From contig NZ_JAKMCR010000004.1 of NCBI RefSeq assembly GCF_022662175.1, positions 124,001 through 188,000 of the forward strand: a stretch of 64,000 nucleotides of DNA. The letters are read 5' to 3'. The notes beneath the pieces were generated by a model, which worked only from the letters and a program-made list of their open reading frames with translations, did no database searches and was not told where the DNA came from. Of the stretch, positions 212 through 51,479 are shown one piece after another; the stretch's first letter is position 1; each line of letters starts with the position of its first letter. The stretch is from Aestuariivivens marinum (GTDB lineage Bacteria; Bacteroidota; Bacteroidia; Flavobacteriales; Flavobacteriaceae). Both the position numbers and the translations under genes were made by a program.

Positions 212-1804
212 ATGACAAGAGTACAATTGTTTAGTTTGTTATTTATCACCACATTATTTTTTCAAATGTGTAAGCCCAAGGATACATTGGTGATGAATCA
301 ACATAATAAGCACGTTTCAATTGAAGGGCAAAATTTCATTGATTCTTTAGGCAGGACTTTAACTCTACATGGCATTAGCGTGTGTAACAAAGACCCCAAA
401 ACCAACTATTTAGGACATATTACTCCCGAAGAATTTAAAATGTTTAAAGAATGGGGTTTTAATGTTATTAGATTGGGTATTATATGGGATGGTTTAGAAC
501 CAGAACCAGGAGTCTATAACCAGGAGTATCTTAAAGGGATAGATGACATGATCCAATGGGCAACCGACAATGATTTGTATGTTTTTCTGGATATGCACCA
601 AGATTTGTTTAGTGTCGATTTTAGTGATGGTGCGCCCTCTTGGGCTACAATAACCAATGATCTGCCACATCTTACAGGCGATGTTTGGAGTGAGGCTTAT
701 CTAATAAGCCCTGCCGTACAAACGGCATTTGATAATTTTTGGGCTAATACTCCTGCACCTGATGGTGTAGGCATCCAAGATCATTATTTAAACCTATGGA
801 AGTATTTGGCAGAACGCTACAAGGACAACACAAGAGTAATTGGTTTTGATGTGATGAACGAACCGTTTATGGGGTCAGAGGCCAATAAAATTACACCATT
901 GCTTTTAGAGTCCTATGCAAAATTGTTGGCTGAACAAACAGGAGAAGCCCCACCTTCATTGGAAGAAGTGATGCATTTGTGGAATACTAATAAAATGGAG
1001 GTTTTAGGATCGCTATCCGATAAAGAAACCTATAAAAAATGGTTGGATGTTATCTATGAGGTTAATGCAGTTTTTGAAAGAGGTACGTTGACTGCATTTT
1101 ACCAAAAAGCGAGAGATGAAATCCGTAAGGTTAATAAACACCATATTATTTTTACCGAGCACAGCTATTTCACCAACATGGGATTGGTAGGTGCACTTGG
1201 AGAAATTGTTGATGAAAATGGACAAAAAGACCCTTTAGTGGCTTATGCCGCGCATGGTTACGATTTAGTGGTCGATACCGATGCGCTTACTTTAGGAAGC
1301 AACGATCGTGTGGAACTCATTTTTGAGCGTATCGCACAAACCGGACAACGGTTAGAAGTGCCAGTTTTAATAGGTGAGTGGGGGGCTTTACATGGAAAGT
1401 CGCCTGAATTAATTCCAACAGCAAACTTTTTGCTCAACCAGTTTAATAAGCATGGCTTTAGCGATGCCTTTTGGGCTTATGGAAAATTTTTATTGGATGC
1501 CTCTTTTCTTGATGTGTTAAAGAAGCCATACCTTGTTGAAACTTCGGGGGTTTTGGAAAACTATAGTTTTGATTATGAGTTAGGAACCTTTAACTGCACT
1601 TGGCACGAAGATGAAGCAATTACAGCGCCAACACGAATTTATGTGTCTGATATAAGTAAGCTAAATAAAGATACCCTGCAATTGACCCCTGAAATTGAAG
1701 GGGTTTCTATAGAGGAAATGGAACATTCAAAGGCAGGTCATTTGGTTATTCCAGCAAGTGGAAAAAAATTGGAACGAAAACTCACATTTACTTTAATCAA
1801 ATGA
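212..1804 (+). CDS. GH5 family glycosidase, endoglycoceramidase-like, lipoprotein
   Basis: A 530-residue retaining glycosidase of the GH5 type. The TIM barrel spans about residues 35-440. The motif GFDVMNEPF places the acid/base at Glu217, and VLIGEWGAL places the nucleophile at Glu389. The conserved HQD at 129-131 and FTEHSYF at 314-320 fit the endoglycoceramidase branch. The last 90 residues look like the small beta-sandwich found at the C-terminus of that branch. The N-terminus (LFFITTLFFQMC-like, Cys20) is a loose Bacteroidota lipobox, so the enzyme is probably membrane anchored. The ATG at 212 precedes the signal peptide directly. Family-level assignment is firm. The real substrate (glycolipid or a polysaccharide linkage) cannot be read from the sequence. 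Confidence 0.8.
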   Translation: MTRVQLFSLLFITTLFFQMCKPKDTLVMNQHNKHVSIEGQNFIDSLGRTLTLHGISVCNKDPKTNYLGHITPEEFKMFKEWGFNVIRLGIIWDGLEPEPGVYNQEYLKGIDDMIQWATDNDLYVFLDMHQDLFSVDFSDGAPSWATITNDLPHLTGDVWSEAYLISPAVQTAFDNFWANTPAPDGVGIQDHYLNLWKYLAERYKDNTRVIGFDVMNEPFMGSEANKITPLLLESYAKLLAEQTGEAPPSLEEVMHLWNTNKMEVLGSLSDKETYKKWLDVIYEVNAVFERGTLTAFYQKARDEIRKVNKHHIIFTEHSYFTNMGLVGALGEIVDENGQKDPLVAYAAHGYDLVVDTDALTLGSNDRVELIFERIAQTGQRLEVPVLIGEWGALHGKSPELIPTANFLLNQFNKHGFSDAFWAYGKFLLDASFLDVLKKPYLVETSGVLENYSFDYELGTFNCTWHEDEAITAPTRIYVSDISKLNKDTLQLTPEIEGVSIEEMEHSKAGHLVIPASGKKLERKLTFTLIK

Positions 1805-1856: not shown

Positions 1857-4814
1857 ATGAAAGAATTAATGTCACGGCTAATTGCCCTTTCTATGGTAAT
1901 GTGTACTGCACAACAGATAATTGCACAAACTGAACTTAAATATAATGTTGCAGAAACCCCTTGGGAAGCTGGCTTTGGTAATCATAGGGCCATTGTTGAG
2001 GTTCCTAAAAACGCCGATGCCGTAAAACTTGATTTTAACTGGAGGCGTCATGATAAAAACCCTGCAGAGCGAAGGCTTTTGATTGTCAATGCAAAAACAG
2101 GAGATACCATATCAAACATACATAGGTTAATTGTAAACAATGAAACCTGCAAGTTAGTTTTTGGTCCCGTTGAGAAAGGAAGCTATTATTTTTATTATTT
2201 GCCCTTTAAACCAGATAAGGAATGGGGTTTTTACCGTTACGGATATCTTAAAAAAGAGGATATACCGAGTAAGCACTGGATGGAAGAAAACAAATTGGAG
2301 CAGTCCAAAAAATTGAAAAAACTACCAAAGGCAATTTGTACTGAAATTCAAGCCAGAACTGATTTCGATTCGTTTTATCCTATGGAAGTTATTGCTACTC
2401 AAGCCGAAGAGGAGCAGTTGACAAACAGTACGACATCTAACTATATTGCCATAGCAGAAGATAGAAAGTATCCCATTAAAATGCGCGATTATTTGCCTTT
2501 AAAATGGATTAAAGAAGACGTAACGCATCATTTTGAAGGTAAGGCTCTAAAAAACGAATACTACGCTTTTCAAATTGGCATTTATGCGGCTAAAACAGAT
2601 TTGGAAAATGTATCATTGGAATTTCACGATTTAAAATCCTCAAATAATAGTGTTATTCCGGCCAGTGCTTTTACCTGTTTTAATACCCATGGTGTGGATC
2701 CATACGGAACACCATTTATAAAACAGGTTAACGTTAATAAAGGTAAAATACAACCGTTATGGATTGGCACTGATATCTTAGCAACTACCAAATCGGGAGC
2801 GTATAAAGGGCATGTTACAATTAAGGCTGATAATCAACCCGATAAAACTATTGCCATCATATTACATGTTTCAGAAGAAACCATTGCCGATAGAGGTGAT
2901 AATGAACCGTGGAGACATTCGCGCTTACGTTGGTTGAATTCAACCATTGGATTGGATAATGAACCAACAAAACCCTACACGCCAATTACATTAATCGAGG
3001 AAAACAAACTTGGGCTATATGGTAAACAGGTTGCATTAAATGAGCAAGGTTTACCATCTGCTATAAATGTTTGGGATACTGAGATTTTAAATAATCCTAT
3101 ACGATATGTTTTGGAAGGAGACTCTCTAGTAAGTTCAAATGTTCACCAAACAAATATTGATTCTGGTATTTTTGAAAGGTCGGTTTCGGCCCACTCGGAA
3201 AATTTTGAGATTCAAACTACAAATACTATTGAGTTTGATGGTCATTTAACTTATAAAATAAAACTAACAGCTAAAGAGGATAGCGAGCTCAAAGATTTTA
3301 AATTAGAGATCCCTTTTCAATCCAGTATAGCGGAATATATGATGGGTATGGGATTACCGGGTACCTCAGTTCCTCAAAATCATTCAGCCAAATGGAAAGG
3401 ACCACATGATAGTTTTTGGGTGGGTAATACCTATGGCGGACTGCACGTCGAGTTAAGAGGTGGTAGTTATCATGGACCATTACTTAATCTTTATAAGCCT
3501 GAGCCTCCAGAAAGTTGGCACAATGGGGGTAAAGGAGGTTTTTCAATAGAGAAAGGCGATAATGAAACAACCGCAAGAATCTATTCTGGACAACGAAATT
3601 TTAAAAAAGGAGAAACTTTGGTTTTTGAATTGTCTTTTTTAATTACTCCTGTAAGACAGATAGATACTAAAGCGCAATTCGACAATAGATACTACCATAA
3701 TGGATTGGATCCTATGCCCAAAGATGATGAAATTACCGATGGTGTTAAGATCGTGAACCTGCATCATGCCAGCAAGTATAACCCTTATATTAATTATCCT
3801 TTTGTAGCAACAAAGGAAATGAAAAGCTTTGTAGACCAAATGCATGCTAAGGACTTAAAAGTGAAAATTTATTACACCATCAGGGAACTTACCAATTACA
3901 CCACTGAGATATGGGCATTACGTAGTTTGGGTAATGAAATTTTAGGAACAGGAAAAGGTGGGGGTTATCCGTGGTTACAAGAACATTTAGTGGACGATTA
4001 CCGTTGGCAGTGGTATTCACCACTTGAAAATGGTATTGATGCCTCTATTGTCAATGCACCAGGTGATTCACGTTGGTATAATTACTATTTAGAAGGATTG
4101 GCTTGGTTGGTTAAACATATAGATATTGACGGATTGTATCTGGATGATGTCTCTTACGATAGACGTATATTAAAACGTATGCGTAAAATTTTGGATAGAA
4201 CAAAGCCAGGGTGTATGATGGATTTACATTCCAATACAGGGTTTTCAAAAGGACCAGCAACACAATATACAGAGTTCTTTCCATATTTAGATAAACTGTG
4301 GTTTGGAGAGAGTTTTAGATACGATGAGATGCCTGCTGAAAATTGGTTGGTAGAGGTTTCGGGGATTCCATTCGGACATATGGGAGATATGTTACATGCT
4401 GGCGGAAACCCATGGCGTGGCATGGTGTATGGCATGACCGTACGCTACCCGTGGTTTACAGATGGCGTAACCTGCGACCCCAGACAAATCTGGAAAGTAT
4501 GGGACAGTTTTGGTATTGCCGATTCTAAAATGATTGGCTATTGGGAGAAACAACCTGTGGTAAGTACTAGTAATCCAGCGGTAAAGGCGACTGCTTATGT
4601 TAAAGAAGATAAAATGTTAATAGCTGTGGCAAGTTGGGCAAAAGAAGCGGTAAATGTAAAATTAAATATCGATTGGCAGGCCGTAGGTATAGATATGAGC
4701 AAAGTAAAAGTGAAAGCTCCTAAAATTGAAAATTTTCAACCAGAACAGCTGTTTTCTGTAGATGACGATCTTACAATAGATCCTACCAAAGGCTGGTTGC
4801 TAGTTGTTGAATAA
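1857..4814 (+). CDS. Large secreted GH123-like (DUF6067-type) glycosidase candidate
   Basis: A 985-residue protein with a signal peptide ending near IIAQ (residue 24). Residues 25-600 look like beta-sandwich modules. Residues 610-900 look like a TIM barrel with KIYYTIRELTNYTTEIWALR, then HIDIDGLYLDDVSYDR, DLHSNTGFSKGP and VTCDPRQIW. The DGLYLDD stretch carries the acidic residues expected at a barrel active site. The layout resembles uncharacterised Bacteroidota proteins annotated as glycoside hydrolase domain or GH123 N-terminal/DUF6067; that family name is from memory and tentative. It sits between the GH5 and GH95-like genes in the same operon, 52 bases after the GH5 stop. A glycan-active role is likely and the substrate is unknown. 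Confidence 0.6.
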   Translation: MKELMSRLIALSMVMCTAQQIIAQTELKYNVAETPWEAGFGNHRAIVEVPKNADAVKLDFNWRRHDKNPAERRLLIVNAKTGDTISNIHRLIVNNETCKLVFGPVEKGSYYFYYLPFKPDKEWGFYRYGYLKKEDIPSKHWMEENKLEQSKKLKKLPKAICTEIQARTDFDSFYPMEVIATQAEEEQLTNSTTSNYIAIAEDRKYPIKMRDYLPLKWIKEDVTHHFEGKALKNEYYAFQIGIYAAKTDLENVSLEFHDLKSSNNSVIPASAFTCFNTHGVDPYGTPFIKQVNVNKGKIQPLWIGTDILATTKSGAYKGHVTIKADNQPDKTIAIILHVSEETIADRGDNEPWRHSRLRWLNSTIGLDNEPTKPYTPITLIEENKLGLYGKQVALNEQGLPSAINVWDTEILNNPIRYVLEGDSLVSSNVHQTNIDSGIFERSVSAHSENFEIQTTNTIEFDGHLTYKIKLTAKEDSELKDFKLEIPFQSSIAEYMMGMGLPGTSVPQNHSAKWKGPHDSFWVGNTYGGLHVELRGGSYHGPLLNLYKPEPPESWHNGGKGGFSIEKGDNETTARIYSGQRNFKKGETLVFELSFLITPVRQIDTKAQFDNRYYHNGLDPMPKDDEITDGVKIVNLHHASKYNPYINYPFVATKEMKSFVDQMHAKDLKVKIYYTIRELTNYTTEIWALRSLGNEILGTGKGGGYPWLQEHLVDDYRWQWYSPLENGIDASIVNAPGDSRWYNYYLEGLAWLVKHIDIDGLYLDDVSYDRRILKRMRKILDRTKPGCMMDLHSNTGFSKGPATQYTEFFPYLDKLWFGESFRYDEMPAENWLVEVSGIPFGHMGDMLHAGGNPWRGMVYGMTVRYPWFTDGVTCDPRQIWKVWDSFGIADSKMIGYWEKQPVVSTSNPAVKATAYVKEDKMLIAVASWAKEAVNVKLNIDWQAVGIDMSKVKVKAPKIENFQPEQLFSVDDDLTIDPTKGWLLVVE

Positions 4815-4839
4815 TGATAAAATAATAAAGATAAAACAG

Positions 4840-7359
4840 GTGTTCAAAGATCAAATTAAATTAATTGTAATAGTCTGTTCAGTTTTTTACTTTCAAAATG
4901 TATTGGCACAGAACCCTATTTTTGAAGTAGATGCTTCTTATTTAACCAAACACGACATTGTTTATAAAACCCCTGCTTATGAAGGCTTCGAAGGGTTTCC
5001 TATTGGAAACGGGGATTTGGGAGGTATGGTTTGGAATACTAAAAATGGTATTGAAATCCAAATCAATAAAAATGATTTATTCGATCAACCTAATGCCGAA
5101 TCTGAAGCCACATTACGAGGAGGTGCAAGATTAAGCGTAGATCTTGGTGTTCCGGCATTCGAGTGGCTGTACCTTGATGATTTTGATAGTAGGCTATCGC
5201 TGAGAAATGCCAATGTTTCCATAGGTTCTAAAACACCATTTTCAGAAAATGAAATTAAGTCTTGGGTAGCTGTAAATAAAAATGTATGGATTGTTAATAT
5301 CAAGTCGAAATCAATAGAAGTAGAGGATAACTCCAAAATACGTGTCGGATTAGAACGTTGGGGTAGTCGTACCTTTGCAGGATGGTATGGTGGTTATTCC
5401 AAAAACACGAATATAGGTTTAGGTAATACTCAAACTAACGTTAAAGGTAGGGATATCATTTTAGAAGAAACTTTTAAAGGATTACAATTTACGGTAGCCT
5501 GTCGTATTTTGGGAGCAATAGCCAATCCTAATACAATAAGTGATAACCGGGTGGAACTTACAACCAATTCTAAAAACTCGCATGACCTAACGGTTATGGT
5601 ATCGCTAGTGACTTCAAATGAATCTAAGCACCCTACAAGTTCAGCTATTGCCTTATTGGACACTGTAGAACAACAAAGTATTTCAAAAGAAAAAGAAGAA
5701 CACCAACAGTGGTGGGCTGATTTTTGGAGTAAGTCTTTTGTGCATCTAGGTAACGATTATATAGAAAATCTTTACTATTTCCGCCGTTATTTAATGGCAA
5801 GTTCCTCTAGAGGAAAATACCCCGTAGTGTTCAATGGTGGTTTATGGACGTGGAATCACGATGTAAGAAACTGGGTAACGCCACACCATTGGAATACCCA
5901 ACAACAATATTGGGGACTGGCAGCACAAAACGATACAGAACTTATGCTGCCTTATATAAATACCTATTTTAGTTTGATGCCACAAGCCGAAAAACATGCC
6001 AAATTGCGTGGAGCTGATGATGCTATTTTGTGGAGTGAGGCCCATGACTTTTTCGGTAAAATGACCTTTTGGGACAGGGGAGATATGCTCAATAACTTTA
6101 CACCAGCGACACAAATAGCAGGCTTCTTTTGGGAGTACTATCAGTTTACTCAAGATAAACAATTTTTAAGAGATAAAGGCTATCCATTCTTAAAGAAAGC
6201 TGCTGAATTTTACGTAAAAAAACTACAATGGGATGCTGATAAAAAAGAATATTTTATCTATCCGTCGCAACCTTATGAAAGTCCGAGAACTCACGATTTA
6301 AAAAATCCCATTACCGATAGAAATATGATTATTTCTACTATGGATGCTTGTATTAAAGCGGCAAAAACACTTCATGTAGATAATAATAAAATAAAACAAT
6401 GGCAGCATATTATAGACCATATATGGCCTATCCCTTTTAGGGAAGAACCTGGCCTAGGTGAAATTATGCAATTGGCATACAATCCAGATGGGACTATTTA
6501 TCCCACGCCCGAGGTATATGGTAAATGGACCAATCATTTTAGTGGTAACACCTCGCTGGTATTTCCAGCAAATATAATTGGTTTGGAAGATAAGGGAAGT
6601 CGTGAATTTAATGCAGCTTCCAATGTAGTAAAACACCACGCTCCGGAAGTAAATGCTATTTCTCCTGATGCTATTGTGGCTGCGCGTTTGGGCTTGGGTA
6701 ATGTGGTGATGGATCGCATGCGAAATGGGGTCCGCAGGCTACAACATTTTCCTCAAGGCTTATTTTATAATATAGACCATTGGTATAACCTATCCATTTA
6801 TATGGACTCGGTGGCAAAACCAGATATAACCACCCAACGCGATTATATTTACGATGCAAGAGCGAAATACCCAAAAGGTCATCCAGCAAAACCTTTTATT
6901 CAAACAGGATTGGAAACTTTAAGCCATTACAGTGCAGCGGTTAATGAAATGTTGTTACAGAGTAATGAAGGAAAAATCAGGGTTTTTCCAGCAATTCCAG
7001 ACGAATGGGCTCCTGCTTTTAAATTAAGGGCAAGAGGCGCTTTTTTGGTTGCATCCGAGAAAAAGGAGAATGGTCAAGTTTCAGGAATTTGGATAAAAAG
7101 CTTGAAAGGAAACCATTGTAAAGTGGTTAACCCTTGGGAAGGATCGAAGGTAGAGGTGTATGCCGATAACCATTTAAGAACAAAAATAAAGCATCAAGAA
7201 AAGGATGGTATCATTCATTTTAAAACACAACCCGATTCGGCATATCTAATTATTTTAAAGGGTAGTGAATGGAATAAAAAAAGAATCTTTAAAAGTGATA
7301 AAAACAATGCACCTAAGCATTTTTTAGAAGCTACTTTAGGAAAAAGTAAAAATTTCTAA
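4840..7359 (+). CDS. Divergent GH95-like (alpha/alpha)6 glycosidase, secreted
   Basis: About 839 residues, read here from GTG at 4840. No in-frame ATG precedes the signal peptide; TTG at 4804 inside the previous gene is the other option. The peptide LIVIVCSVFYFQNVLAQ is a clear signal sequence. The N-terminal domain has EGFPIGNGDLGGMVW, the hallmark of the GH95 N-terminal super-sandwich. The segment MASSSRGKYPVVFNGGLW aligns with GH95 barrel helices, and the C-terminal IRVFPAIPDEW matches the usual IELLPALPDAW ending. The catalytic Asn pair of GH95 (HxNxN) reads HWNTQ here (H350, N352, Q354), and the Asp of DGN is replaced by Glu by my manual alignment. Glycosidase fold is well supported; fucosidase activity should not be assumed. 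Confidence 0.65.
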   Translation: MFKDQIKLIVIVCSVFYFQNVLAQNPIFEVDASYLTKHDIVYKTPAYEGFEGFPIGNGDLGGMVWNTKNGIEIQINKNDLFDQPNAESEATLRGGARLSVDLGVPAFEWLYLDDFDSRLSLRNANVSIGSKTPFSENEIKSWVAVNKNVWIVNIKSKSIEVEDNSKIRVGLERWGSRTFAGWYGGYSKNTNIGLGNTQTNVKGRDIILEETFKGLQFTVACRILGAIANPNTISDNRVELTTNSKNSHDLTVMVSLVTSNESKHPTSSAIALLDTVEQQSISKEKEEHQQWWADFWSKSFVHLGNDYIENLYYFRRYLMASSSRGKYPVVFNGGLWTWNHDVRNWVTPHHWNTQQQYWGLAAQNDTELMLPYINTYFSLMPQAEKHAKLRGADDAILWSEAHDFFGKMTFWDRGDMLNNFTPATQIAGFFWEYYQFTQDKQFLRDKGYPFLKKAAEFYVKKLQWDADKKEYFIYPSQPYESPRTHDLKNPITDRNMIISTMDACIKAAKTLHVDNNKIKQWQHIIDHIWPIPFREEPGLGEIMQLAYNPDGTIYPTPEVYGKWTNHFSGNTSLVFPANIIGLEDKGSREFNAASNVVKHHAPEVNAISPDAIVAARLGLGNVVMDRMRNGVRRLQHFPQGLFYNIDHWYNLSIYMDSVAKPDITTQRDYIYDARAKYPKGHPAKPFIQTGLETLSHYSAAVNEMLLQSNEGKIRVFPAIPDEWAPAFKLRARGAFLVASEKKENGQVSGIWIKSLKGNHCKVVNPWEGSKVEVYADNHLRTKIKHQEKDGIIHFKTQPDSAYLIILKGSEWNKKRIFKSDKNNAPKHFLEATLGKSKNF

Positions 7360-7387: not shown

Positions 7388-9844
7388 ATGATGAGATATC
7401 TCATATTAATGTTATTGGCCTCACTTTTTGTGTCTTGTAAGACCAATACCAATATTGTATCCTTTAAGGGCACAGAAAGTAACGAGCCAGCTTCTACTTG
7501 GGAAGAAGCTATGGTAACAGGAAACGGTAATATGGGTGCTATGATGTACGGTAACCCTTTTAATGAAACCATCGTAGTGAACCATTGTGAAATGTTCTTG
7601 ACTCTAGGTACCAAAGAATTTGTTAAACATGCTGCTCCTTTTATGCCAGAGATAAAGGAAAAAGCCCTGGAAGCTGGTGTAAACGGCCCAACTGTGGCAC
7701 ATCAAATGTTACTTGAAAAAACAGGGCAAAAAATTGATTGGACAGATCCTTTTCACCCCGCATTTATATTTCATATCAATAACACAGAACGAGCTTATAA
7801 AAATTATCAATTAATAGAAAACTTTGCAACTGGCGAATTAAAAGTTTCTTGGGATGACAATGAGGGCCATTGGGAAAGAAAATTGTTTATTTCCAGACCA
7901 GACGATGTTATTGTTATGGAAATAACAGGCCCTAAGGGTAAAGTGGGAGGCTCGTTTTCTATGGAATTGACCCATGAATTGATACAAACAGAAATGGCAG
8001 TAGCACACGGAGAAATAAAAACGCACGCGACTTATGTACATGGCAAAGGAGGTTATGATAATGTGGTCAGAATCATTCCAAAAGGTGGGCAAATGATAAG
8101 TGATTCATCATCTGTTACGGTTTCACAAGCAGATAAAATTTTGGTTGTAATGCAAGTAGATAACTGGAAAACACCATTACCTGAATCGCAAAGTGAGGTA
8201 TGGGCCTACTCCCCTAAAAATCCAAAGTTTACAGGTGATTATTCCACTAATAAGCAAGAAGCTATTTTAAAGAAATTTGATGCTTTGGCTTCAGACTATC
8301 AAACTTTGCTTAAGCCTCATGCCCAAGCACATGGTGATTTGTTCCATAGAGTAAAACTAAATCTTAACGGCTCCCAAACTGAAACAGTGTCCTCACAAAC
8401 GCTATTACAGCAAGCGGCACAAAGCGGGCAATTGACTCCTGCATTGGCAGAGAAAATGTATGATGCCTGTAGATATTTAATTATATGTAGTACAGGAAAG
8501 AACCCTCCCAATTTACAAGGCATTTGGACAGGTACGTGGAAACCGGCATGGAGTGGAGATTATACCTTAGATTCTAACCTTCAATTGGAGGTTCAATCCA
8601 TTATGAGTAGCAATATGCCCGAACTCATGGAAAACTATTTTACACTTATAGAATCTTGGCTGGTAGACAGTCGCTTGAATGCTGAAAAATTCTATGGCTG
8701 TAGAGGCATTGTATCTAATCCAAGAGCATCAAACACCAATCTTTTATTGCATTGGGGCAGATGGCCAGGCGAACAATCCATTGGCACAATGGGATGGATG
8801 TTACACTTTTTTTATGATTACTATCAATTTACTGGAGACTCTGAATTTCTGAAAGATAGAGTAGTACCTTTATTAAAGGAGAATGCCTTGTTTTATGAAG
8901 ATTTTTTAAAGGATACCGAAGATGAGAATGGTAAGTATCAATTTTTCATCTCCTATTCACCTGAGCAAGACCATTATTTGTATGCCAATTCAACCTTCGA
9001 TATATCAGTTACTAAAGCCGTTTTAACCTATTTGATAAAATCATGTAAGCTTTTAAATATTGAGAAGGAAAACATCATAAAATGGCAAACGATGATAGAT
9101 AAATTGCCGGATTATATGATTAATGAAAAAGGTGAGCTTATGGAATGGGCTTCAGAGGGAACACAAGAAGTCTATAATCAGCGTCACCATTCCCATTTGT
9201 TACCGTTATACCAATTTTGTGAATTCGATATGGAATCCAATCCACAATTATGGGAAGCTTCTACAAAAGCTTTAGAAGGTAAAACAGAAAACTGGCTACA
9301 TAATAGGGAAAATGCGGATAGCAACCATATAACCCATGGTATGATGAACCAGGCTCAGGCAGCAGCACGTCTTGGAAAATCAGAGGTAGTATATGAAGTC
9401 CTCTCTCGACTGGCGACGGAACAATACATTTACCCTAGTTTTATGATGTCATACTGGCCAAATAAAAAAGGCTATGGTTTTGATCCTATAGGAACCATCC
9501 CAGATGTTATAAATAATGCCTTGGCATTTGCGTGGGAGGATGTTATAGATATCATTCCTGCCTTACCAAAAGAATGGTCAAAAGGAGCTATCAATAATAT
9601 ATTATTAAGAGGACAAGTTCAAATCGATGAACTGGCTTGGAATATGGAAATAGGCGAATTAAAATTGAAAATAACTTCCAAAATAGATAAAACGTTAACC
9701 ATAAGACTTCCCGAAAAATATGAGGTAGGTAATATAGAGTGTAGTGAGGGAGAAGTGAAACATATTCAAGGCGAATATAATAATAAGTGGAAAATAGAAC
9801 TATTTAAAAATAAGACAAAGGAACTTGTTTTTAGTCTCAAATAA
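7388..9844 (+). CDS. GH95-like glycosidase variant, lipoprotein
   Basis: An 818-residue lipoprotein: MMRYLILMLLASLFVSC has a lipobox with Cys17. TWEEAMVTGNGNMGAMMYG marks the GH95 N-terminal domain. The barrel contains NLQGIWTGTWKPAWSGDY and the likely general acid Glu526 in ISYSPEQDH. The C-terminus has the IIPALPKEW ending of the family. At the position of the catalytic HxNxN motif the sequence is TLDSN (Thr393, Asp395, Asn397), so the usual His is Thr and the first Asn is Asp. The downstream Asp (GFDPIG) aligns with the family DGN. The Thr may point to alpha-L-galactosidase rather than alpha-L-fucosidase activity, which is inference. It lies 28 bases after the preceding GH95-like gene. Confidence 0.7.
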   Translation: MMRYLILMLLASLFVSCKTNTNIVSFKGTESNEPASTWEEAMVTGNGNMGAMMYGNPFNETIVVNHCEMFLTLGTKEFVKHAAPFMPEIKEKALEAGVNGPTVAHQMLLEKTGQKIDWTDPFHPAFIFHINNTERAYKNYQLIENFATGELKVSWDDNEGHWERKLFISRPDDVIVMEITGPKGKVGGSFSMELTHELIQTEMAVAHGEIKTHATYVHGKGGYDNVVRIIPKGGQMISDSSSVTVSQADKILVVMQVDNWKTPLPESQSEVWAYSPKNPKFTGDYSTNKQEAILKKFDALASDYQTLLKPHAQAHGDLFHRVKLNLNGSQTETVSSQTLLQQAAQSGQLTPALAEKMYDACRYLIICSTGKNPPNLQGIWTGTWKPAWSGDYTLDSNLQLEVQSIMSSNMPELMENYFTLIESWLVDSRLNAEKFYGCRGIVSNPRASNTNLLLHWGRWPGEQSIGTMGWMLHFFYDYYQFTGDSEFLKDRVVPLLKENALFYEDFLKDTEDENGKYQFFISYSPEQDHYLYANSTFDISVTKAVLTYLIKSCKLLNIEKENIIKWQTMIDKLPDYMINEKGELMEWASEGTQEVYNQRHHSHLLPLYQFCEFDMESNPQLWEASTKALEGKTENWLHNRENADSNHITHGMMNQAQAAARLGKSEVVYEVLSRLATEQYIYPSFMMSYWPNKKGYGFDPIGTIPDVINNALAFAWEDVIDIIPALPKEWSKGAINNILLRGQVQIDELAWNMEIGELKLKITSKIDKTLTIRLPEKYEVGNIECSEGEVKHIQGEYNNKWKIELFKNKTKELVFSLK

Positions 9845-9857
9845 CTAAGAAGAATAA

Positions 9858-13055
<3,198 letters not shown>

Positions 13056-13060
13056 TTTAA

Positions 13061-16000
13061 ATGAATACTAAAAGAATATTTTTTGTAGTACTAATTTTAT
13101 TAGCAATGAGTACTTCTACATTCTCACAAGATGCCACTATAAGAGAAGAAAAATTTTCAATGAAAACCTATATGTTTTCAGACCCAAGTCCACTACCTCA
13201 AATAGGCAGATTATATCCCTATTTTAGGTTTGATGGTTATACTAATAATGCGGAAGATAAGGAGTGGAATATGGTAGTTTTGGAAAATGAATATATTAAA
13301 GTATTTGTGTGCCCAGATATTGGAGGCAAAATATGGGGTGCCATAGAAAAATCTACAGGGAAAGAATTTATGTACTATAACCATGTGGTCAAATTTAGGG
13401 ACGTGGCCATGAGAGGCGCTTGGACTTCTGGTGGACTGGAGTATAATTTTGGAGATATAGGGCATATACCAACCTGTGCCACTCCGGTTGATTACATAAT
13501 TAAGGAGAATGATGATGGTAGCGTTTCCTGTATTGTAGGAGCTTTGGATCTACCATCGCGAACCAATTGGAATGTAGAGATACGATTGCCAAAAAATAAG
13601 GCTTATTTTGAAACGAAGGCAACATGGTTTAATAATACTGATGTCCCAGTAACTTATTACCATTGGATGAATGCCGCTGCTAAATCTAAAGGAAATCTTG
13701 AGTTTTTATATCCGGGGAACAAACGTATTGGACATGGTGGTGAAATAGGTGAATGGCCAATTGATGAAGGGAGAGAAATCAGTTTTTATGAAAATAACAA
13801 TTTCGGTATTTATAAATCCTATCATGTAATTAATTCCTATTCCGATTATTTTGGTGGCTATTATCACGATGATGATTTTGGTTTCGGACATTATAGTCTT
13901 TACGACGACAAGCCTGGAAAGAAAATATGGATTTGGGGCCTTTCAGACCAGGGAATGATATGGGAAGACCTTTTAACGGATTCCGATGGACAATATATCG
14001 AATACCAATCGGGAAAACTCTTTAATCAAGCAGCGGCTAGCAGTACCTATACTCCTTTTAAACACCGCGAATTTTCACCACACGATGCCGATATAATGAA
14101 GGAATATTGGTTTCCATTAAAAGAAACAAAGGGTATGGTAGCAGCTTCAAAATATGGGGTTTTTAATATCGAAAAATCTAAAGACCAAATCACCTTATTT
14201 TTAAGTGCGTTACAAAATTTAGACGATGAATTGGTAGTTATTTCACAAGGTAAAACTATTTTAAGCAAAAAAGTAAAACTTGATCCCCTGCAATTGTTTA
14301 CCGAATCATTAACTATAGATGATGTAAGTGATTTAGAAATAAACTTAGGAAACAAAAAGTTATATTACAACTCTAATAGCCCTAATAATATGGTCAGTAG
14401 ACCTATAGTTCCCAATGAAGATTTCAATTGGGAAACAGCTTATGGATTATATATTGAAGGTTTGGAATTGGAGAAACAACGTCGATATCCTGAAGCTTTG
14501 CAAGTTTATGAACAAAGCTATGAAAAAGACCCTGGCTTTGTTCCAACAATAAATCGGTTGTCGTTAAGTCACTATCGTATCATGCGATACGAAAAGGCCC
14601 TAGATTATATTACTAAAGCACTAGCCATAGATACTTACGATGGATTGGCAAACTACAATTATGGTTTAATACATACCATCTTAGGAAACACAAATGAAGC
14701 TAAGAGTGGATTTTCAATAGCCAGCCAAGATTTAGCATATAGGTCGGCGTCATACACAGAATTGGCAAAGCTGTTTTTAAATGAACATAATTTGTACAAA
14801 GCCAAAATATATCTTAATAAAGCGTTGCATTTTAATTCATTTAATGTGAGTGCCCTAGAAATGCAAGCCTTTATTCATAGGAAAGAAAAAGATAATGTTT
14901 CGGCACAATTAAAGTTAAAAGAGATTAGCCAATTAGATGCAACAAATATATTTGTTGCTGCTGAATTAATGTTTTTAAAACTAAAGAATGAATTGGAGTT
15001 TAAAGCACATATCACCAATGAACTACCATATGAAACCTATCTTGAATTAGCTTTAAAGTATCAGGCATTAGGAAGCAAAAATGAAGCTATTGCCATATTA
15101 AAGTTAGCACCAAAGCATCCAATGGTATTATTGTGGTTGGCCCATTTAGATGCTGAAAATACGACTGACTATTTACACGAAGCACTCAAATTACCAGTAG
15201 ATTTGGTATTTCCACATCGTATTGAAAGCGTGACAATGTTAAATGAATTGATCAGTAAAACTCCCCAATGGAAATTAAAATATTACATCGCACTTATTTA
15301 TTGGAATAAAGGCTTAATTGAAGAAGCCAAAAATATGTTTTCCAAGTGCGGAAGCGAACCAGACGCATCCCTATTTTATTTAACCAAAACCAAGCTGTTT
15401 GCTGATGATAAAGACGTTGCCGGAGCTGCATTACAAAATGCTTACAGCATTAGCCCTAATGATTGGAGGGTAAATATGGCGCTTATAGAAGACTATTTAG
15501 TAAAGCATAAGTTTGAAACAGCAGCTAAAAAAGCCAAAACCTATTTGAAATTATATCCCGAAAAATCGTTGTTTGGTATGCACTATGCCAAAGCTTTAAT
15601 GGGACTGAAGAAGTACGATACCTGTATAGATTTTCTAAATAAGTTTAACGTATTGCCATACGAAGGTGCCACTATAGGTAGAACGATGTATCATGAAGCC
15701 TGTATTAAAGCAGCTTATGATGCTCTTCAAAAAAAGAATTTTAAACAGGCCATTCGTTATGCCGAACAAGCTAAACTATGGCCAAAAAATTTAGGGGTAG
15801 GCAAACATTACGATGTAGATGAACGGTTGGATGACTTTATTATAGCCTATAGTTTAGGGCAGTTGCATAAAGAAACTAAAGCAAAGGAAGTTTACAAAAA
15901 CATTAGCAACCACCGTACACCTAAGTACCTAAATGAAAGTACCAAACTGTATTTGCAACTTATGGCATTAGGGAAACTAAGCAAGACCCAAGAAGCCGAT

Positions 16001-16201
16001 AACCTTTTAAAAGAAGCGTTACAACATGATAAAAACAATCAATATCTAAAATGGGTAGAAGCAAAATATAAAAACACCAACCCAGAACAAATAAGACAGC
16101 ACATTTTGGAGGCAGGCACCGAAGTACAGGTGTACGATACCAAGTTTGTAGATACCGAATTTGATTTACTAACCGATTTTTTAAGCATCATCGAAAAATA
16201 A
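13061..16201 (+). CDS. Secreted DUF5107 and TPR-repeat protein
   Basis: A 1046-residue protein with signal peptide MNTKRIFFVVLILLAMSTSTFSQ. Residues about 30-430 form a beta-rich DUF5107-like domain that recalls galactose-mutarotase folds, with KIWGAIEKSTGKEFMYYN and SGGLEYNFGDIGH. From about residue 455 to the end it is helical TPR repeats (for example YPEALQVYEQSYEKDPGF and YEKALDYITKALAID). No catalytic motif is recognised. It follows the GH2 gene by 5 bases and precedes the canonical GH95 by 7. A second member lies at 32659-35958, also next to a GH2 gene, but lacks a signal peptide. Function is unknown: a sugar-binding or glycan-cleaving N-terminus with a scaffolding C-terminus is a guess. 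Confidence 0.75.
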   Translation: MNTKRIFFVVLILLAMSTSTFSQDATIREEKFSMKTYMFSDPSPLPQIGRLYPYFRFDGYTNNAEDKEWNMVVLENEYIKVFVCPDIGGKIWGAIEKSTGKEFMYYNHVVKFRDVAMRGAWTSGGLEYNFGDIGHIPTCATPVDYIIKENDDGSVSCIVGALDLPSRTNWNVEIRLPKNKAYFETKATWFNNTDVPVTYYHWMNAAAKSKGNLEFLYPGNKRIGHGGEIGEWPIDEGREISFYENNNFGIYKSYHVINSYSDYFGGYYHDDDFGFGHYSLYDDKPGKKIWIWGLSDQGMIWEDLLTDSDGQYIEYQSGKLFNQAAASSTYTPFKHREFSPHDADIMKEYWFPLKETKGMVAASKYGVFNIEKSKDQITLFLSALQNLDDELVVISQGKTILSKKVKLDPLQLFTESLTIDDVSDLEINLGNKKLYYNSNSPNNMVSRPIVPNEDFNWETAYGLYIEGLELEKQRRYPEALQVYEQSYEKDPGFVPTINRLSLSHYRIMRYEKALDYITKALAIDTYDGLANYNYGLIHTILGNTNEAKSGFSIASQDLAYRSASYTELAKLFLNEHNLYKAKIYLNKALHFNSFNVSALEMQAFIHRKEKDNVSAQLKLKEISQLDATNIFVAAELMFLKLKNELEFKAHITNELPYETYLELALKYQALGSKNEAIAILKLAPKHPMVLLWLAHLDAENTTDYLHEALKLPVDLVFPHRIESVTMLNELISKTPQWKLKYYIALIYWNKGLIEEAKNMFSKCGSEPDASLFYLTKTKLFADDKDVAGAALQNAYSISPNDWRVNMALIEDYLVKHKFETAAKKAKTYLKLYPEKSLFGMHYAKALMGLKKYDTCIDFLNKFNVLPYEGATIGRTMYHEACIKAAYDALQKKNFKQAIRYAEQAKLWPKNLGVGKHYDVDERLDDFIIAYSLGQLHKETKAKEVYKNISNHRTPKYLNESTKLYLQLMALGKLSKTQEADNLLKEALQHDKNNQYLKWVEAKYKNTNPEQIRQHILEAGTEVQVYDTKFVDTEFDLLTDFLSIIEK

Positions 16202-16208
16202 CATAAAC

Positions 16209-18536
16209 ATGAAATTAAAAGCCTTAGCATTGTTAATAAGCCTTTCAGCATTTTCACAACAAAAAAAAGAGCTGACCTTATGGTACACAGAACCCGCAAC
16301 CGATTGGATGACAGAAGCCCTGCCCATTGGAAACGGTTATATCGGTGCCATGTTTTTTGGTGGAATAAACGAGGAACACATTCAATTTTCCGAAGGCACC
16401 TTATGGTCTGGTGGACCAGATTCCAACCCAAATTACAATTTTGGAATAAAGGAAGGGGCTTATAAATATTTGCCAGAGGTAAGAGCGTTGTTAAAAGAGG
16501 GGAAAACCCGAGAAGCAGACCAATTGGTTAAAGCTAAGTTTACGGGAGCTATAGAAACAGGACCACGTTATAATAGTGAATTTGGGGATTACGGAGCACA
16601 ACAGACTATGGGTGATTTTTATATAAAATTAAATCACTCTGGCGAGCCTTCTAATTATAAAAGAAGCCTGGATTTAAAAACAGGACTAGCGGAAGTAAGC
16701 TATACAGTGAATAATGAAAACTATAAAAGGACCTATTTTGGTAATTACCCGAGTAAGGTTATGGTATATCATTTTGAAAGTTCTGTGGCAACCAATTATG
16801 AAATTCGTTTTAAAACACCCCATGCTACGATAAAAGAAGCTTTAGAGGATAGTGTTTATATCTTTCAAGGAAAGGTAGCGGATAACGGAATGGCTTTTGA
16901 AACTAGAATTTCTCTTAAAAAAACAGACGGGAACCTATCCTATAAAAATGGAGTAGTTTATGTGGAAGGTGCGAAGAATATAACACTTGAGCATACAGCA
17001 GCTACATCATTCGAGTTATCCTATCCAAAATATAAGAACCCAAGGTTTAAGAAAAAAAACATTGAAGCGTTAGATGCAGTTGCAAAATTGTCTTATGATG
17101 ATTTAATTGAAGAACATCTTTTAGATTATAGTAACCTATTTAATAGAGTTTCTTTTAGTTTGGAAGGAGAATCTTTTAGCGATGTTCCTACTAATCAGCG
17201 TCTAAAAAATTATGTTAAAGGGAATCAAGATGCGGGGCTGGAAAGCCTCTATTTTCAGTATGGCAGATATTTAATGATTTCAGGAAGCAGACCTAATACC
17301 ATGTCCATGCATTTACAGGGGAAATGGAACGATGCAACAAATCCAGCTTGGGCTGCGGATTACCATAGCAATATTAATTTGCAAATGATATACTGGCCTG
17401 CTGAGTTGACAAACCTTTCTGAATGCCATGAACCTTTTTTAGAATATATAGAAAGCCTAGTTGAACCTGGAAAATTAGCAGCAAAGGAATTTTTTAATGC
17501 CGATGGCTGGATGGTCAATACTATGTGTAATGCTTTTGGCTACACTTCACCAGGCTGGGGAATTCCCTGGGGCTTTTTTCCAGGAGGGGCAGGATGGTTT
17601 TCACAGCATTTGTGGGATCATTACGATTTTACAAATAATAAACAGTTTTTAGAGGATACAGCATATCCCATTATGAAAGAATCGGCTCGGTTTTGGATAA
17701 GTTATTTAACCGAGGATGAAAATGGAAAGTTAGTTTCTGTGCCATCATATTCTCCCGAACATGGAGGGATTTCAAGTGGAGCTTCCATGGACCATCAAAT
17801 TGCTTGGGATGTACTAAACAATTGTGTGAAAGCAGCTAAGGTATTAGGAATAGAAGATGATTTTACGCGAACAGCTTTAAGGGTAAGGGATAATATATTG
17901 CCACCACAAATTGGAAGCTGGGGACAGTTACAAGAGTGGAAAGAAGATGTAGATGACCCTAATAATAAGCACAGACATGTATCCCACCTTTATGCCTTAC
18001 ATCCGGGAAATCAAATATCAACTATAGAAACTCCAGAACTAGCTGAAGCGGTAAGAGTATCTTTAAATGCTCGTGGAGATGGTGGTAGTGGCTGGTCTAG
18101 AGCCTGGAAGATTAACTTTTGGGCACGACTTAATGATGGAAACAGAGCCCATAAAATGTTGAACCAGCTATTAACGGCAGTAGAAACAAAAACCATATCT
18201 ATGGATAATTCAGGTGGAACGTATGCTAATTTATTATGTGCCCATCCGCCGATTCAATTAGATGGAAATATGGGAGGTGTATCAGGTATCGTTGAAATGT
18301 TATTACAATCCCAGTCTGGAATTATCGAACTATTACCGGCTTTACCAGATGTTTGGGAAAGTGGCGAAATAAAAGGATTAAAGGCACGAGGTGGATTTGA
18401 AGTGGATATAAAATGGAACAACGGAAAAGTTGTTGCAGGGCTTATTAAAGGAAAACCATTTCAAAAAGGAAGAGTTAAAGTTAACAATAAAGTAAAACCC
18501 TTTAAACTTAATTCTAAAGGAACCTATAGTTTTTAA
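16209..18536 (+). CDS. GH95 alpha-L-fucosidase (or alpha-L-galactosidase), secreted
   Basis: A 775-residue canonical GH95 member. EALPIGNGYIGAMFFGG begins the N-terminal domain. The (alpha/alpha)6 barrel has DYHSNINLQMIYWPAE with the catalytic pair Asn388/Asn390, general acid Glu517 in PSYSPEHGG, and LDGNMGG with the conserved Asp. The C-terminal IIELLPALPDVW is standard. His386 precedes the Asn pair. As I recall, that His favours L-fucose over L-galactose in characterised enzymes, so alpha-L-fucosidase is the first choice. MKLKALALLISLSAFSQ is a signal peptide, so the enzyme is exported. It is the last gene of the + strand operon, followed by a strong terminator. Confidence 0.87.
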   Translation: MKLKALALLISLSAFSQQKKELTLWYTEPATDWMTEALPIGNGYIGAMFFGGINEEHIQFSEGTLWSGGPDSNPNYNFGIKEGAYKYLPEVRALLKEGKTREADQLVKAKFTGAIETGPRYNSEFGDYGAQQTMGDFYIKLNHSGEPSNYKRSLDLKTGLAEVSYTVNNENYKRTYFGNYPSKVMVYHFESSVATNYEIRFKTPHATIKEALEDSVYIFQGKVADNGMAFETRISLKKTDGNLSYKNGVVYVEGAKNITLEHTAATSFELSYPKYKNPRFKKKNIEALDAVAKLSYDDLIEEHLLDYSNLFNRVSFSLEGESFSDVPTNQRLKNYVKGNQDAGLESLYFQYGRYLMISGSRPNTMSMHLQGKWNDATNPAWAADYHSNINLQMIYWPAELTNLSECHEPFLEYIESLVEPGKLAAKEFFNADGWMVNTMCNAFGYTSPGWGIPWGFFPGGAGWFSQHLWDHYDFTNNKQFLEDTAYPIMKESARFWISYLTEDENGKLVSVPSYSPEHGGISSGASMDHQIAWDVLNNCVKAAKVLGIEDDFTRTALRVRDNILPPQIGSWGQLQEWKEDVDDPNNKHRHVSHLYALHPGNQISTIETPELAEAVRVSLNARGDGGSGWSRAWKINFWARLNDGNRAHKMLNQLLTAVETKTISMDNSGGTYANLLCAHPPIQLDGNMGGVSGIVEMLLQSQSGIIELLPALPDVWESGEIKGLKARGGFEVDIKWNNGKVVAGLIKGKPFQKGRVKVNNKVKPFKLNSKGTYSF

Positions 18537-22839: not shown

Positions 22840-24132
22840 TTATTCTTGGTTATTGGCCCAGGTTTCCAGTAAAAGAATGGCTTTATACAAAACGCCTGCA
22901 GAACCTCTAAAGGTTCCAGAACCCTCAGGCTCATTTTTTACCGTATACCATTCAAAAAAGCCATTGTTTTTCACCACTCTGTCTGTCATGGGCAATAGTT
23001 GCTCATAAGCTTCTACAATGAAACCATTTTTAACTAGTTCTTGAATCATACGACCACCAAACCAAGTCCAGTCGCCACCATTTTGGTAGCCATAGGGATA
23101 CATGCCTTTGTTTTCAAAAGCCCATTCTGGGTAGGGGGGGAACATGGTAAGTCCAATAGAACCGGCACCAGAAGCCTTAACATTTGAAATCATTTTGTCC
23201 AAAGAGCCTCTTATTTGTTCTTTGTTTAGCAATCCAGCTTCTATAGCAATAGCAGTTCCGCCATGATAATAGATTTTATTTTCATCAAAATCTTTGGGAT
23301 AAGGTGATTTCTCCAAATAGACATGAGGAATGAATTTTTGTTTTTTTTCATCCCATAATACCTTCATTGTATTTTTTGCAATTCCGTTGCGAATGCTTTT
23401 CCATTTGTCTTTGGTTTGAGGTATAAGTTCCATAAGGTTGTCTAAAGCAATAAGCATCATGGCGTTGTCGTAAATATCTACGCAATAGTGGGTGTCATCG
23501 GTGATGAAAACACCCCAAGGATGTGAATGCTGCACATCCCCCCAATCGGCCGTGGTAGCACCATAGATCAATCCAAATTTTTCAGACCATCTATGATCCA
23601 TTAAAAACTGCATGGCTATTTCCATACGTTGGGCTACTGTAAAATCGCCTACTTGTTCGTTTAAAAAATCTGCATTCCCTGTTTTTTTTATGTATTTATA
23701 TACCGCTTGCACTAAGGAGCTTTCATGGTCAGTTTCTACGGTGTTTTTATGTCCGCAGTAGTTAGGTTCTAAATCGCTACAAATAAATTTGTAGCCCCCT
23801 TCGGTATCAATGGCTTTTTCTTTGGGTATAAAACCATCTATAATGTTGCCGTCTTCTCCTTGTAGTTTAAAAAAGACCAACAGATTTTCTTCTAGGATCT
23901 TGGCGTCAAATACCTCAGCAGATAGCTCTATAAATGTATTGTAGTCGCGTATCCAAACTTCGCCGTATCCATCGCCAGCATTAAAACCGGTTTTTACGAC
24001 ATCTAATGCTTTAGACTTAACTTTTTTAAAGTTTTCATTGTCTTGAATTTTTTTTACGAGCTCTAAAGTTTCTTTTTTTTCCGTACAAGAAAAACTTATT
24101 ATAGAAAGCACAATAGCTATTATTTTTTTCAT
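22840..24132 (-). CDS. (alpha/alpha)6 glycosidase-like lipoprotein, family unassigned
   Basis: A 430-residue lipoprotein (MKKIIAIVLSIISFSC, Cys16). It has features of six-hairpin glycosidases: GYGEVWIRDYNTFIELS, NTVETDHESSLVQAVYKY, LIYGATTADWGDVQHSHPWG, DTHYCVDIYDNAMMLIALD and GGDWTWFGGRMIQEL. The many acidic and Trp residues in loops suit an exo-acting enzyme that holds one sugar. I cannot place it in a CAZy family (GH15, GH63, GH100 and GH125 are related in fold). Lying between the GH92 and GntR genes, it likely acts on mannose-containing oligosaccharides, which is inference from context. Confidence 0.6.
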   Translation of the reverse strand: MKKIIAIVLSIISFSCTEKKETLELVKKIQDNENFKKVKSKALDVVKTGFNAGDGYGEVWIRDYNTFIELSAEVFDAKILEENLLVFFKLQGEDGNIIDGFIPKEKAIDTEGGYKFICSDLEPNYCGHKNTVETDHESSLVQAVYKYIKKTGNADFLNEQVGDFTVAQRMEIAMQFLMDHRWSEKFGLIYGATTADWGDVQHSHPWGVFITDDTHYCVDIYDNAMMLIALDNLMELIPQTKDKWKSIRNGIAKNTMKVLWDEKKQKFIPHVYLEKSPYPKDFDENKIYYHGGTAIAIEAGLLNKEQIRGSLDKMISNVKASGAGSIGLTMFPPYPEWAFENKGMYPYGYQNGGDWTWFGGRMIQELVKNGFIVEAYEQLLPMTDRVVKNNGFFEWYTVKNEPEGSGTFRGSAGVLYKAILLLETWANNQE

Positions 24133-26664: not shown

Positions 26665-28431
26665 TTAACAAGCTCTATCTTTAACAAAGGATACAATAAT
26701 TTTTGCTTTTTCACTTCCCTTGTTAATTATGGTATATGTCTTTACAGCTGCTGGAATGGCAAAAGTTTCGGCATAATGAAACGATTTATGGGTTTTATTT
26801 ACTTGTAATTCCACTTCTGTTCCTTCTACTAGCATAAGTACATGACATTGTCCTAGGGTTTTTATGGATACCTGGGTTTTAAACTCATAACGATAAATAT
26901 CGTAAAAGTGATCGGGGTGTGTTGGTAGGTGTATTTTTTTCCAATCTTTGGCCGAAACCTCCATTTTTGGTTTCGATATTAACGTGTCTTGTACCACGTT
27001 ACCTTTGCGGTTAAAATTCAAGTTTTCATATGCCCTGTCTATATTTAAAGGTCTAGGATTTCCATCTAAATCTAGGCGTTGCCAATCGTACATCTTAAAG
27101 GTAAAGATGTAAGGAGTAGCGCTAATCTCCAACACCAAATTGTCAATACCAGAGCAATGTATGGTTCCGTGGGGAATTAAAAAGAGGTCATGTTTTTTTG
27201 CCGGAAGTTTTTGCACATATTTTTCAACATCCAAGATTTCTTTGGTTTTAATACTGTATTCTAAAGCAGTTTTAAATTTAGTTGGATCGATGTCTTCCTG
27301 AAACCCTAAATATACATGAGCGTTTGCCTTGGTATCTAAAATATAATAGGTTTCATCCTGGGTAAAGTTTTCTCCAAATTCCTTTTTGATGTAATCTGGT
27401 TTTGGGTGGCATTGCAAGGATAGGTTTCCACCATCGAAAGTGTCGAGAAAGTCAAAACGTATAGGGAATTCGTATTTGAACCTATTGGCTGCTTTTCCAA
27501 GAATGTTTTCATATTCTTGAAACATAAGCATATCAAAAGAAACTTCTAATAAAATGCCATCACTTTCAAAAACCAAACCATTTTCCGGCACAATCATTTC
27601 AAAAGACCAGGCATAGTTGGGTACGTCTTGATTTAAATCTTTAAAGTGTTTCTTCATCCATTGTCCACCCCAAACGCCAGGTTCAAACCATGGTCTTACC
27701 CTAAAACAAGTATGCGACATGTCTCTTAAAGCTTTTCTGAGTACAGAACCGTCCATCCAGGTAGGTTTATTTGGTCTTTGTTGATCTACAATAATGTCGA
27801 TATTAGGTAACAGCCTTTTCTTTTCACTGTTAAGCACTACCCAATCTATAAAGTAGAAATGCTTATACATCTGTTTATGGTTTTTAGGGAAAGTAAAACC
27901 TAGATTTGTAATAGCATTGGCCCGCATACGAAATTGAAGCTCGTTTTTTGGTAAATCGAAATACACTAAATAACCTGCAATTTTAGATTGACTGGCACCG
28001 GTTCCATAAATAATATTAAGGTCTGCATTTGGATCTAACGCAACATTTGAAAGTTTACTTTCATCAAAATATGCCTGAAGTTCCAAATGGGTTTTATGGC
28101 CAAAAATAGGGTCGTCACTACCAAGAAAAGGTGCTGTTATATTGGCAATGTCATTTTCTTTTTTTAAACATGTTGCTATATTGTAAAAAGAGGTTTTTAA
28201 TCCTCTATCTTTTAATATTTCACTTAGGCGATGTTTAACTTCATGCCAATCAACTCCAATGTAGCCATCTAATAAAACCACTTTTTCGTTGACTAATTTA
28301 TCGGCTAGATTTTCATAGCCTATTTCAATTTTTCCTCTGTTTATGAGATGTGAAGGATATAAATCGTAGTCAGAATCTATTGGATTATTTTTTTTATCAG
28401 GCAATAAATATTGTGACGTTTTTCTTTTCAT
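26665..28431 (-). CDS. Mannose-6-phosphate isomerase (ManA type) with extra N-terminal region
   Basis: A 588-residue cytoplasmic protein. The C-terminal 350 residues form a cupin-type phosphomannose isomerase: LSLQCHPK gives zinc ligands Gln340 and His342, TQDETYYIL gives Glu360, and PHGTIHCSG gives His425, matching the short B. subtilis ManA arrangement. It should interconvert mannose-6-phosphate and fructose-6-phosphate. The first 240 residues are additional. VVLLDGYIGVDWHEV sits where a kinase-like P-loop strand would be, but no GxGK[ST] is present. As first gene of the leftward mannose operon it sits directly behind a palindromic operator candidate. Confidence 0.78.
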   Translation of the reverse strand: MKRKTSQYLLPDKKNNPIDSDYDLYPSHLINRGKIEIGYENLADKLVNEKVVLLDGYIGVDWHEVKHRLSEILKDRGLKTSFYNIATCLKKENDIANITAPFLGSDDPIFGHKTHLELQAYFDESKLSNVALDPNADLNIIYGTGASQSKIAGYLVYFDLPKNELQFRMRANAITNLGFTFPKNHKQMYKHFYFIDWVVLNSEKKRLLPNIDIIVDQQRPNKPTWMDGSVLRKALRDMSHTCFRVRPWFEPGVWGGQWMKKHFKDLNQDVPNYAWSFEMIVPENGLVFESDGILLEVSFDMLMFQEYENILGKAANRFKYEFPIRFDFLDTFDGGNLSLQCHPKPDYIKKEFGENFTQDETYYILDTKANAHVYLGFQEDIDPTKFKTALEYSIKTKEILDVEKYVQKLPAKKHDLFLIPHGTIHCSGIDNLVLEISATPYIFTFKMYDWQRLDLDGNPRPLNIDRAYENLNFNRKGNVVQDTLISKPKMEVSAKDWKKIHLPTHPDHFYDIYRYEFKTQVSIKTLGQCHVLMLVEGTEVELQVNKTHKSFHYAETFAIPAAVKTYTIINKGSEKAKIIVSFVKDRAC

Positions 28432-32653: not shown

Positions 32654-32658
32654 CAACT

Positions 32659-51397: not shown

Positions 51398-51479
51398 TAG
51401 TAAAGGTTTTCAAATTTCTAATTTATAAACAGCTATAATTTAGCTAATAACTTGCTTAAAAGAAAGAGGTATTCAAAAC

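Follow-up and report, generated by a model that had tools for sequence, protein, structure and literature searches.

A rare and conserved GH95-type variant from Aestuariivivens marinum with an apparently rebuilt −1 pocket and Asp at the first Asn of the catalytic motif

The GH95 α-1,2-L-fucosidases BbAfcA (PDB entry 2EAB) and FucOB (PDB entry 7ZNZ) are among the closest described systems to the protein discussed here. The active-site sections of PMC10063614 list W414, H419, N421, N423, E566, H678, W722, H760 and D766 (BbAfcA numbers) as active-site residues and describe their FucOB equivalents as critical or essential on the basis of alanine mutants; W655A, H693A and D699A are reported there as critical, with W655 essential. 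In the mechanistic part of PMC12282258, N423 is the base while N421 positions the acid, and the same paper calls the pocket Trp conserved across GH95. According to an excerpt of the review PMC11943901, both Asn residues contact or bond the water. Whether an asparagine amide can act as the base in these two families, GH95 and GH139, continues to be debated. A Thr at the H419 position has been linked to another sugar: in the portion of PMC4491172 on BACOVA_03438, a GH95 α-L-galactosidase, Thr370 contacts O6 and T370H is inactive, the Thr hypothesis itself being put forward cautiously. The specificity section of PMC8245568 describes the Thr-bearing XacAfc95 (PDB entry 7KMQ) as L-fucose-specific, with a preference that T395H leaves unchanged. 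No Asp variant at N421 is evident in the titles and abstract openings of 12 of 26 listed papers, and a search for literature on GH95 subfamilies or 'GH95-like' proteins found none.

Mechanical ORF calling in the window, the 64 000-nucleotide stretch of the A. marinum contig NZ_JAKMCR010000004.1 that was analysed, yields the ORF 7388–9844 (+), which encodes 818 amino acids (Table 1). The protein consists of an N-terminal β-sandwich, an (α/α)6 catalytic domain and a C-terminal β-sandwich. All three GH95 domains pass the curated Pfam cut-offs: PF14498 with 98.7 bits (cut-off 27.7), PF22124 with 237.4 bits (cut-off 27, E = 3.5e-70) and PF21307 with 33.2 bits (cut-off 27.6). By eye, the N-terminus resembles a lipoprotein signal (LFVSC).

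Table 1. Genes and active-site codons of the 7388–9844 locus (positions in the window).
Position	Strand	Feature	Basis or remark
212..1804	+	GH5-type protein, distant to endoglycoceramidase, below cut-off	Pfam
1857..4814	+	GH123_N-type protein, 985 aa	Pfam
4804..7359	+	GH95/GH139-like protein (DUF5703_N)	Pfam; neighbour of the TLDSN gene also in Snuella and in two Carboxylicivirga
7388..9844	+	GH95-type glycoside hydrolase, 818 aa	Pfam domains and fold comparison
8549..8551	+	Trp388 = BbAfcA W414 / FucOB W378, kept; Trp in 156/156	Alignment
8564..8578	+	TLDSN motif, residues 393–397: Thr393 (= H419), Asp395 (= N421), Asn397 (= N423)	BLASTP, phmmer, MAFFT, hhalign
8963..8965	+	Glu526, putative general acid = BbAfcA E566; Glu in 156/156 surveyed	Alignment
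9185..9187	+	His600 = FucOB H613 / BbAfcA H678, kept	Alignment
9335..9340	+	His650-Gly651 replacing Trp-Ser (BbAfcA W722 / FucOB W655)	Profile and multiple alignment
9452..9454	+	Tyr689 replacing His (BbAfcA H760 / FucOB H693)	Profile and multiple alignment
9482..9484	+	Asp699, kept; = BbAfcA D766, which is proposed to activate the base Asn; next Gly-Asn lost	Alignment
9879..13055	+	GH2 β-galactosidase-type protein	Pfam
13061..16201	+	DUF5107-TPR protein	Pfam
16209..18536	+	Canonical GH95, HSNIN, pocket Trp kept	Pfam and alignment

An AlphaFold2 model calculated from ten sequences has a mean pLDDT of 73.8 and a pTM of 0.81. The top structural matches of this model are all GH95 entries, with VIA Z values of 29.7–32.7 to all those listed and the highest value, 32.7, to 2RDY over 692 residues; the next families are GH65 (23.6) and GH139 (22.4). 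In Foldseek alignments the identity to BbAfcA and FucOB is 18–20%. The overlay on a solved GH95 enzyme that had been proposed thus agrees at the level of the fold. It is impossible at the level of residues, since pLDDT falls below 50 in the active-site loops 382–395, 522–533 and 590–604, and the side-chain geometry of the model consequently carries no claim here.

The assignment of active-site residues comes from alignments. The codons ACC TTA GAT TCT AAC encode Thr393, Leu394, Asp395, Ser396 and Asn397, and this stretch falls on the HxNxN motif without a gap in BLASTP against the 16209–18536 copy (24% identity), in phmmer against the solved GH95 chains, in a MAFFT alignment of 156 proteins and in a profile–profile alignment (hhalign, 100%). 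The four routes bear out the sequence-only reading that TLDSN stands where the 16209–18536 copy has HSNIN, and its statement that the general acid and the downstream Asp are kept is equally borne out by the alignment, in which Glu526 corresponds to E566 and Asp699 to D766 of BbAfcA. The complete set of equivalents for W414/H419/N421/N423/E566/H678/W722/H760/D766 is W388/T393/D395/N397/E526/H600/H650/Y689/D699. The canonical Asn at N421 is therefore absent and replaced by Asp395, and the canonical pocket Trp and His (W722 and H760) are absent with His650 and Tyr689 in their place. TLDSN is identical in four orthologues, from Snuella sedimenti (87% identity), two Carboxylicivirga (65 and 68%) and Sunxiuqinia (68%), which rules out a sequencing error.

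To place these substitutions within the family, we use a survey of 156 GH95-type proteins from 165 loci, a non-random sample picked by similarity to the two GH95 proteins of the window or to an alignment, A1; 175 candidates were reduced to 160 by removal of duplicates and to 156 by dropping four DUF5703-type proteins. Of the 156 proteins, 110 have Thr at the first motif position, 43 have His, and Gly, Met and Val occur once each. Although the proposed link between Thr and L-galactosidase activity does exist in the literature (Thr370 of BACOVA_03438; PMC4491172, in the part cited above), Thr393, while present, is non-diagnostic, and we do not take it as a sign of such activity: Thr is the commoner state, and the Thr-bearing XacAfc95 is, in the section of PMC8245568 referred to, L-fucose-specific. 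The third position is Asn in 131 proteins and Asp in 25, while the fifth is Asn in all 156. Asp at the third position requires five changes on the second tree described below, at least four of which are forced by well supported branches, and we reject the idea that Asp395 is a unique or degenerate change. Among the 131 proteins that have Asn at 395, the pocket position is Trp in 127. Four GH95 proteins that are in other respects largely canonical combine Asp at 395 with an intact pocket Trp, so Asp alone need not alter the substrate.

These frequencies also bear on the base. The first Asn had been taken as the residue that activates the water, but the usual choice for the base, as in the mechanistic part of PMC12282258, is the second Asn, here retained as Asn397. 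That Asp has appeared repeatedly at the first Asn, while the second Asn and the Glu never change among the 156 proteins surveyed, points on evolutionary grounds to the second Asn as the essential one. The natural Asp variants are ready-made test material for the question of the base.

On the alignments, the two residues that would grip O3 and O4 of fucose (W722 and H760) are both replaced in the 7388–9844 protein, and these losses would bear more on specificity than does Thr393. Asp395 and His650 are common to 13 proteins of the survey. Both residues served to select this group, in which His650 is accordingly found 13 times out of 13; Gly651 and Ser684 played no part in the selection. All 13 members have Gly651, where 124 of 127 canonical proteins have Ser; 12 members have Ser684, where 126 of the 127 have Asn. 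Asp699 is kept in all 13. The His at the H760 position is kept in eight members, Tyr being limited to the subclade of the window protein. A tree of 61 of the 156 proteins, from which the columns of the motif and of residues 650–651 and 699 were left out, places the 13 members on one side of a branch (100/99). Two members found later (L166 and L167) served as a check on the signature: each has T-x-D-x-N and the Asp, and at 650 a residue other than Trp, namely Phe, that precedes Gly. 'HG' is rejected as a clade-wide mark, as these two carry FG; in a second tree of the 61-protein set plus both, the 15-member group obtains 100/98 and the 13 'HG' proteins alone 91/60.

In searches with A1, scoring was limited to two candidates in almost every genome. 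Matches far above canonical scores occur in these searches in five of 395 genomes of the phylum sample and in three of 395 of each of the order and class samples; in the family sample, counting the genomes with fetched loci, five of 299 read as clade members. The samples overlap. The clade appears to be both deep and rare. Clade genes are also present on plasmid records of Phocaeicola and Monoglobus. Viral contigs, as a source of further sequences for folding, gave two loci, one of which is a near full-length relative. Relative to Snuella, the dN/dS of the 7388–9844 gene is 0.066, below that of the six other PUL genes in the comparison (range of all seven, 0.066–0.125). Purifying selection on the gene is thus strong, and the protein is constrained rather than decaying. 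Taken together, the alignments describe what appears to be a real, conserved and rare GH95 variant with a rebuilt −1 pocket, new within a known family, and this pocket flags a clade for which the plain name fucosidase is likely to be wrong.

Several other GH95-like proteins in the collected loci diverge in their own ways. L015 and L072 (11635–14031) form the sister group of the clade, with the motifs GINEN and MANEN, in which Gly or Met replaces His/Thr; the two Asn residues and the Trp are retained, and the copy from Paenibacillus adjoins a glucuronate isomerase, a GH88 and an α-L-fucosidase. A separate GH95-like group (L004, L086, L087, L089 and L090; L004 belongs to the genome of the window itself) carries H-x-D-L-N, with Tyr at the position of the pocket Trp and Glu at that of Asp766. 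L005 and L009:1107-3350, one of which again lies in the window's own genome (G000:C8:48650), are very divergent, with TLDYN and without the RHxSH and Trp motifs. The GH95 pair L002 and L010:4267-6732 has TLNCN and an altered RHxSH His region (NGQVAH, SGQLAH).

Just upstream of the window lie FecR, SusC, SusD and GH89-type genes, and the orthologous loci, where GH89 is also present, add GH20, GH29 and a sulfatase. The GH89, GH20 and GH123 families act on HexNAc, and this gene context points most readily to a partly sulfated glycan of animal or mucin type as the target of the PUL. The neighbours of distant clade members vary (GH127; GH43/GH120; GH31/GH3; uronate genes), so that context fixes no single substrate for the clade, and it is unlikely that its members have one substrate in common. 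The 4804–7359 protein matches both GH95 (2RDY, 5.6e-22) and GH139 (9HMB, 1.2e-15) and is possibly an intermediate between the two families. Further along the window, the protein of 29447–32656 is very divergent and GH2-like with weak Pfam hits, and is 37% identical to one adjoining the Sunxiuqinia TLDSN orthologue (L010:6739-9945). Beside GH92 and ROK genes, the products of 22843–24132 (430 amino acids) and 26668–28431 (588 amino acids) have no Pfam match at 0.001, and a 551-residue ORF at 40797–42449 has no Pfam match at 1e-8 and no NCBIfam match at 1e-10.

From the residues kept and replaced and from this gene context we infer the catalysis, stereochemistry and substrate of the 7388–9844 protein as follows. 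It is somewhat probable that it is a periplasmic, exo-acting, inverting α-glycosidase of GH95 fold that acts on a modified or different α-linked sugar. Glu526 would protonate the leaving group, Asn397 would activate the water and Asp699 would activate Asn397, as proposed for other GH95 enzymes. Asp395 stands in place of the helper Asn; its most likely role is to position or tune Glu526, and it may help to activate the water. Given the change of W722 and H760 to His650 and Tyr689, the sugar in the −1 site is probably neither plain α-L-fucose nor plain α-L-galactose; a sulfated, methylated or different α-linked sugar is predicted. The target may be an animal or mucin-type glycan that bears HexNAc, fucose and galactose, is partly sulfated and is taken up via the adjacent SusC/SusD. 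A further-reaching version, in which the carboxylate at the N421 position acts as the general base or shares this role, the −1 pocket takes a sugar unreported in GH95 and the mechanism of a natural GH95 subfamily has shifted from Asn-based towards Asp-based inversion, is rather unlikely.

GH95 comprises mostly fucosidases, T-x-D-x-N also occurs in PDB entry 8ZBV, which is titled as an α-L-fucosidase from Pontiella sulfatireligans, and the GH29 and canonical GH95 genes in the same PULs make it likely that fucose is present. The protein could then be an ordinary α-L-fucosidase with an unusual linkage preference in which other residues compensate for the changes in the pocket. However, 8ZBV keeps the pocket Trp that the 7388–9844 protein is without, the equivalent W655 of FucOB is given as essential in the mutant data of PMC10063614, and the PUL already holds a canonical GH95, so we consider this alternative unlikely. 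A GH139 homologue without the acid showed no activity in the assays excerpted from PMC12282258, so relics may exist in this fold, and the pocket Trp is lost here. Against a catalytically dead, glycan-binding or structural relic stand the retention of Glu526, Asn397, Asp699, His600 and Trp388 across a deep clade and the low dN/dS, and this reading is very improbable.

The sequence-only reading had proposed an α-L-galactosidase in which Thr393 hydrogen-bonds O6 of L-galactose, in keeping with L-galactonate genes of the window. Besides the contact and the inactive T370H in the cited portion of PMC4491172, it can draw on two genes at 50387–52934, a tagaturonate reductase that scores 684 bits against a cut-off of 359 and a Zn-dehydrogenase that, with 200 bits, stays under its cut-off of 376, and on locus L079, where homologues of both (89 and 76% identical) lie 4–9 kb from a distant clade member. 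The L079 arrangement speaks for the proposed fit. The pair in the window, on the other hand, lies ∼41 kb from the 7388–9844 gene, outside its own cluster, and no homologues of the dehydrogenases were found in the 22 kb loci of the four close orthologues. L079 also has KduI, an altronate dehydratase and a pectate-lyase-like gene and thus fits uronate use as well. The Thr, as the majority state, is non-diagnostic, and L-galactose has the same O3 and O4 as fucose, which the lost Trp and His bind. The α-L-galactosidase is a weak reading that we hold to be distinctly improbable. In L079 the pair flanks the altronate dehydratase; the pair in the window is without this middle gene.

The GH95 variant with a modified or different −1 sugar, which we prefer, can be set against four known systems. 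With BbAfcA and FucOB it shares the domain order, the fold, the acid Glu, the base Asn (N423), the activating Asp (D766) and the equivalents of Trp414 and His678, but differs in H419 to Thr, N421 to Asp, W722 to His and H760 to Tyr. BACOVA_03438 (PDB entry 4UFC) has the same fold and the same Thr at H419; its own motif is TININ with both Asn residues, so that Asp395 is not common to it. Membership of GH139 is rejected on the D395-x-N397 spacing, His650 and the ranking of GH139 below GH95 by VIA Z. The 2-O-methyl-fucosidase BT0984 (GH139; PDB entry 9HYQ) has the same fold, Glu acid and Asn base and is also changed at the N421 position (Gln411), but according to the structural passages of PMC12282258 it has adjacent Q411-N412 and keeps the stacking Trp683; it also has D723, and its VIA Z is only 22.4. 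Among solved structures, 8ZBV from P. sulfatireligans F21 comes closest as a precedent for the two motif changes; no paper on it was found in the literature by code or by organism and fucosidase. It has the same T-x-D-x-N (TNDLN), but in the phmmer alignment it differs from the window protein in retaining both the Trp of the pocket (TGWS) and the Asp region FQID.
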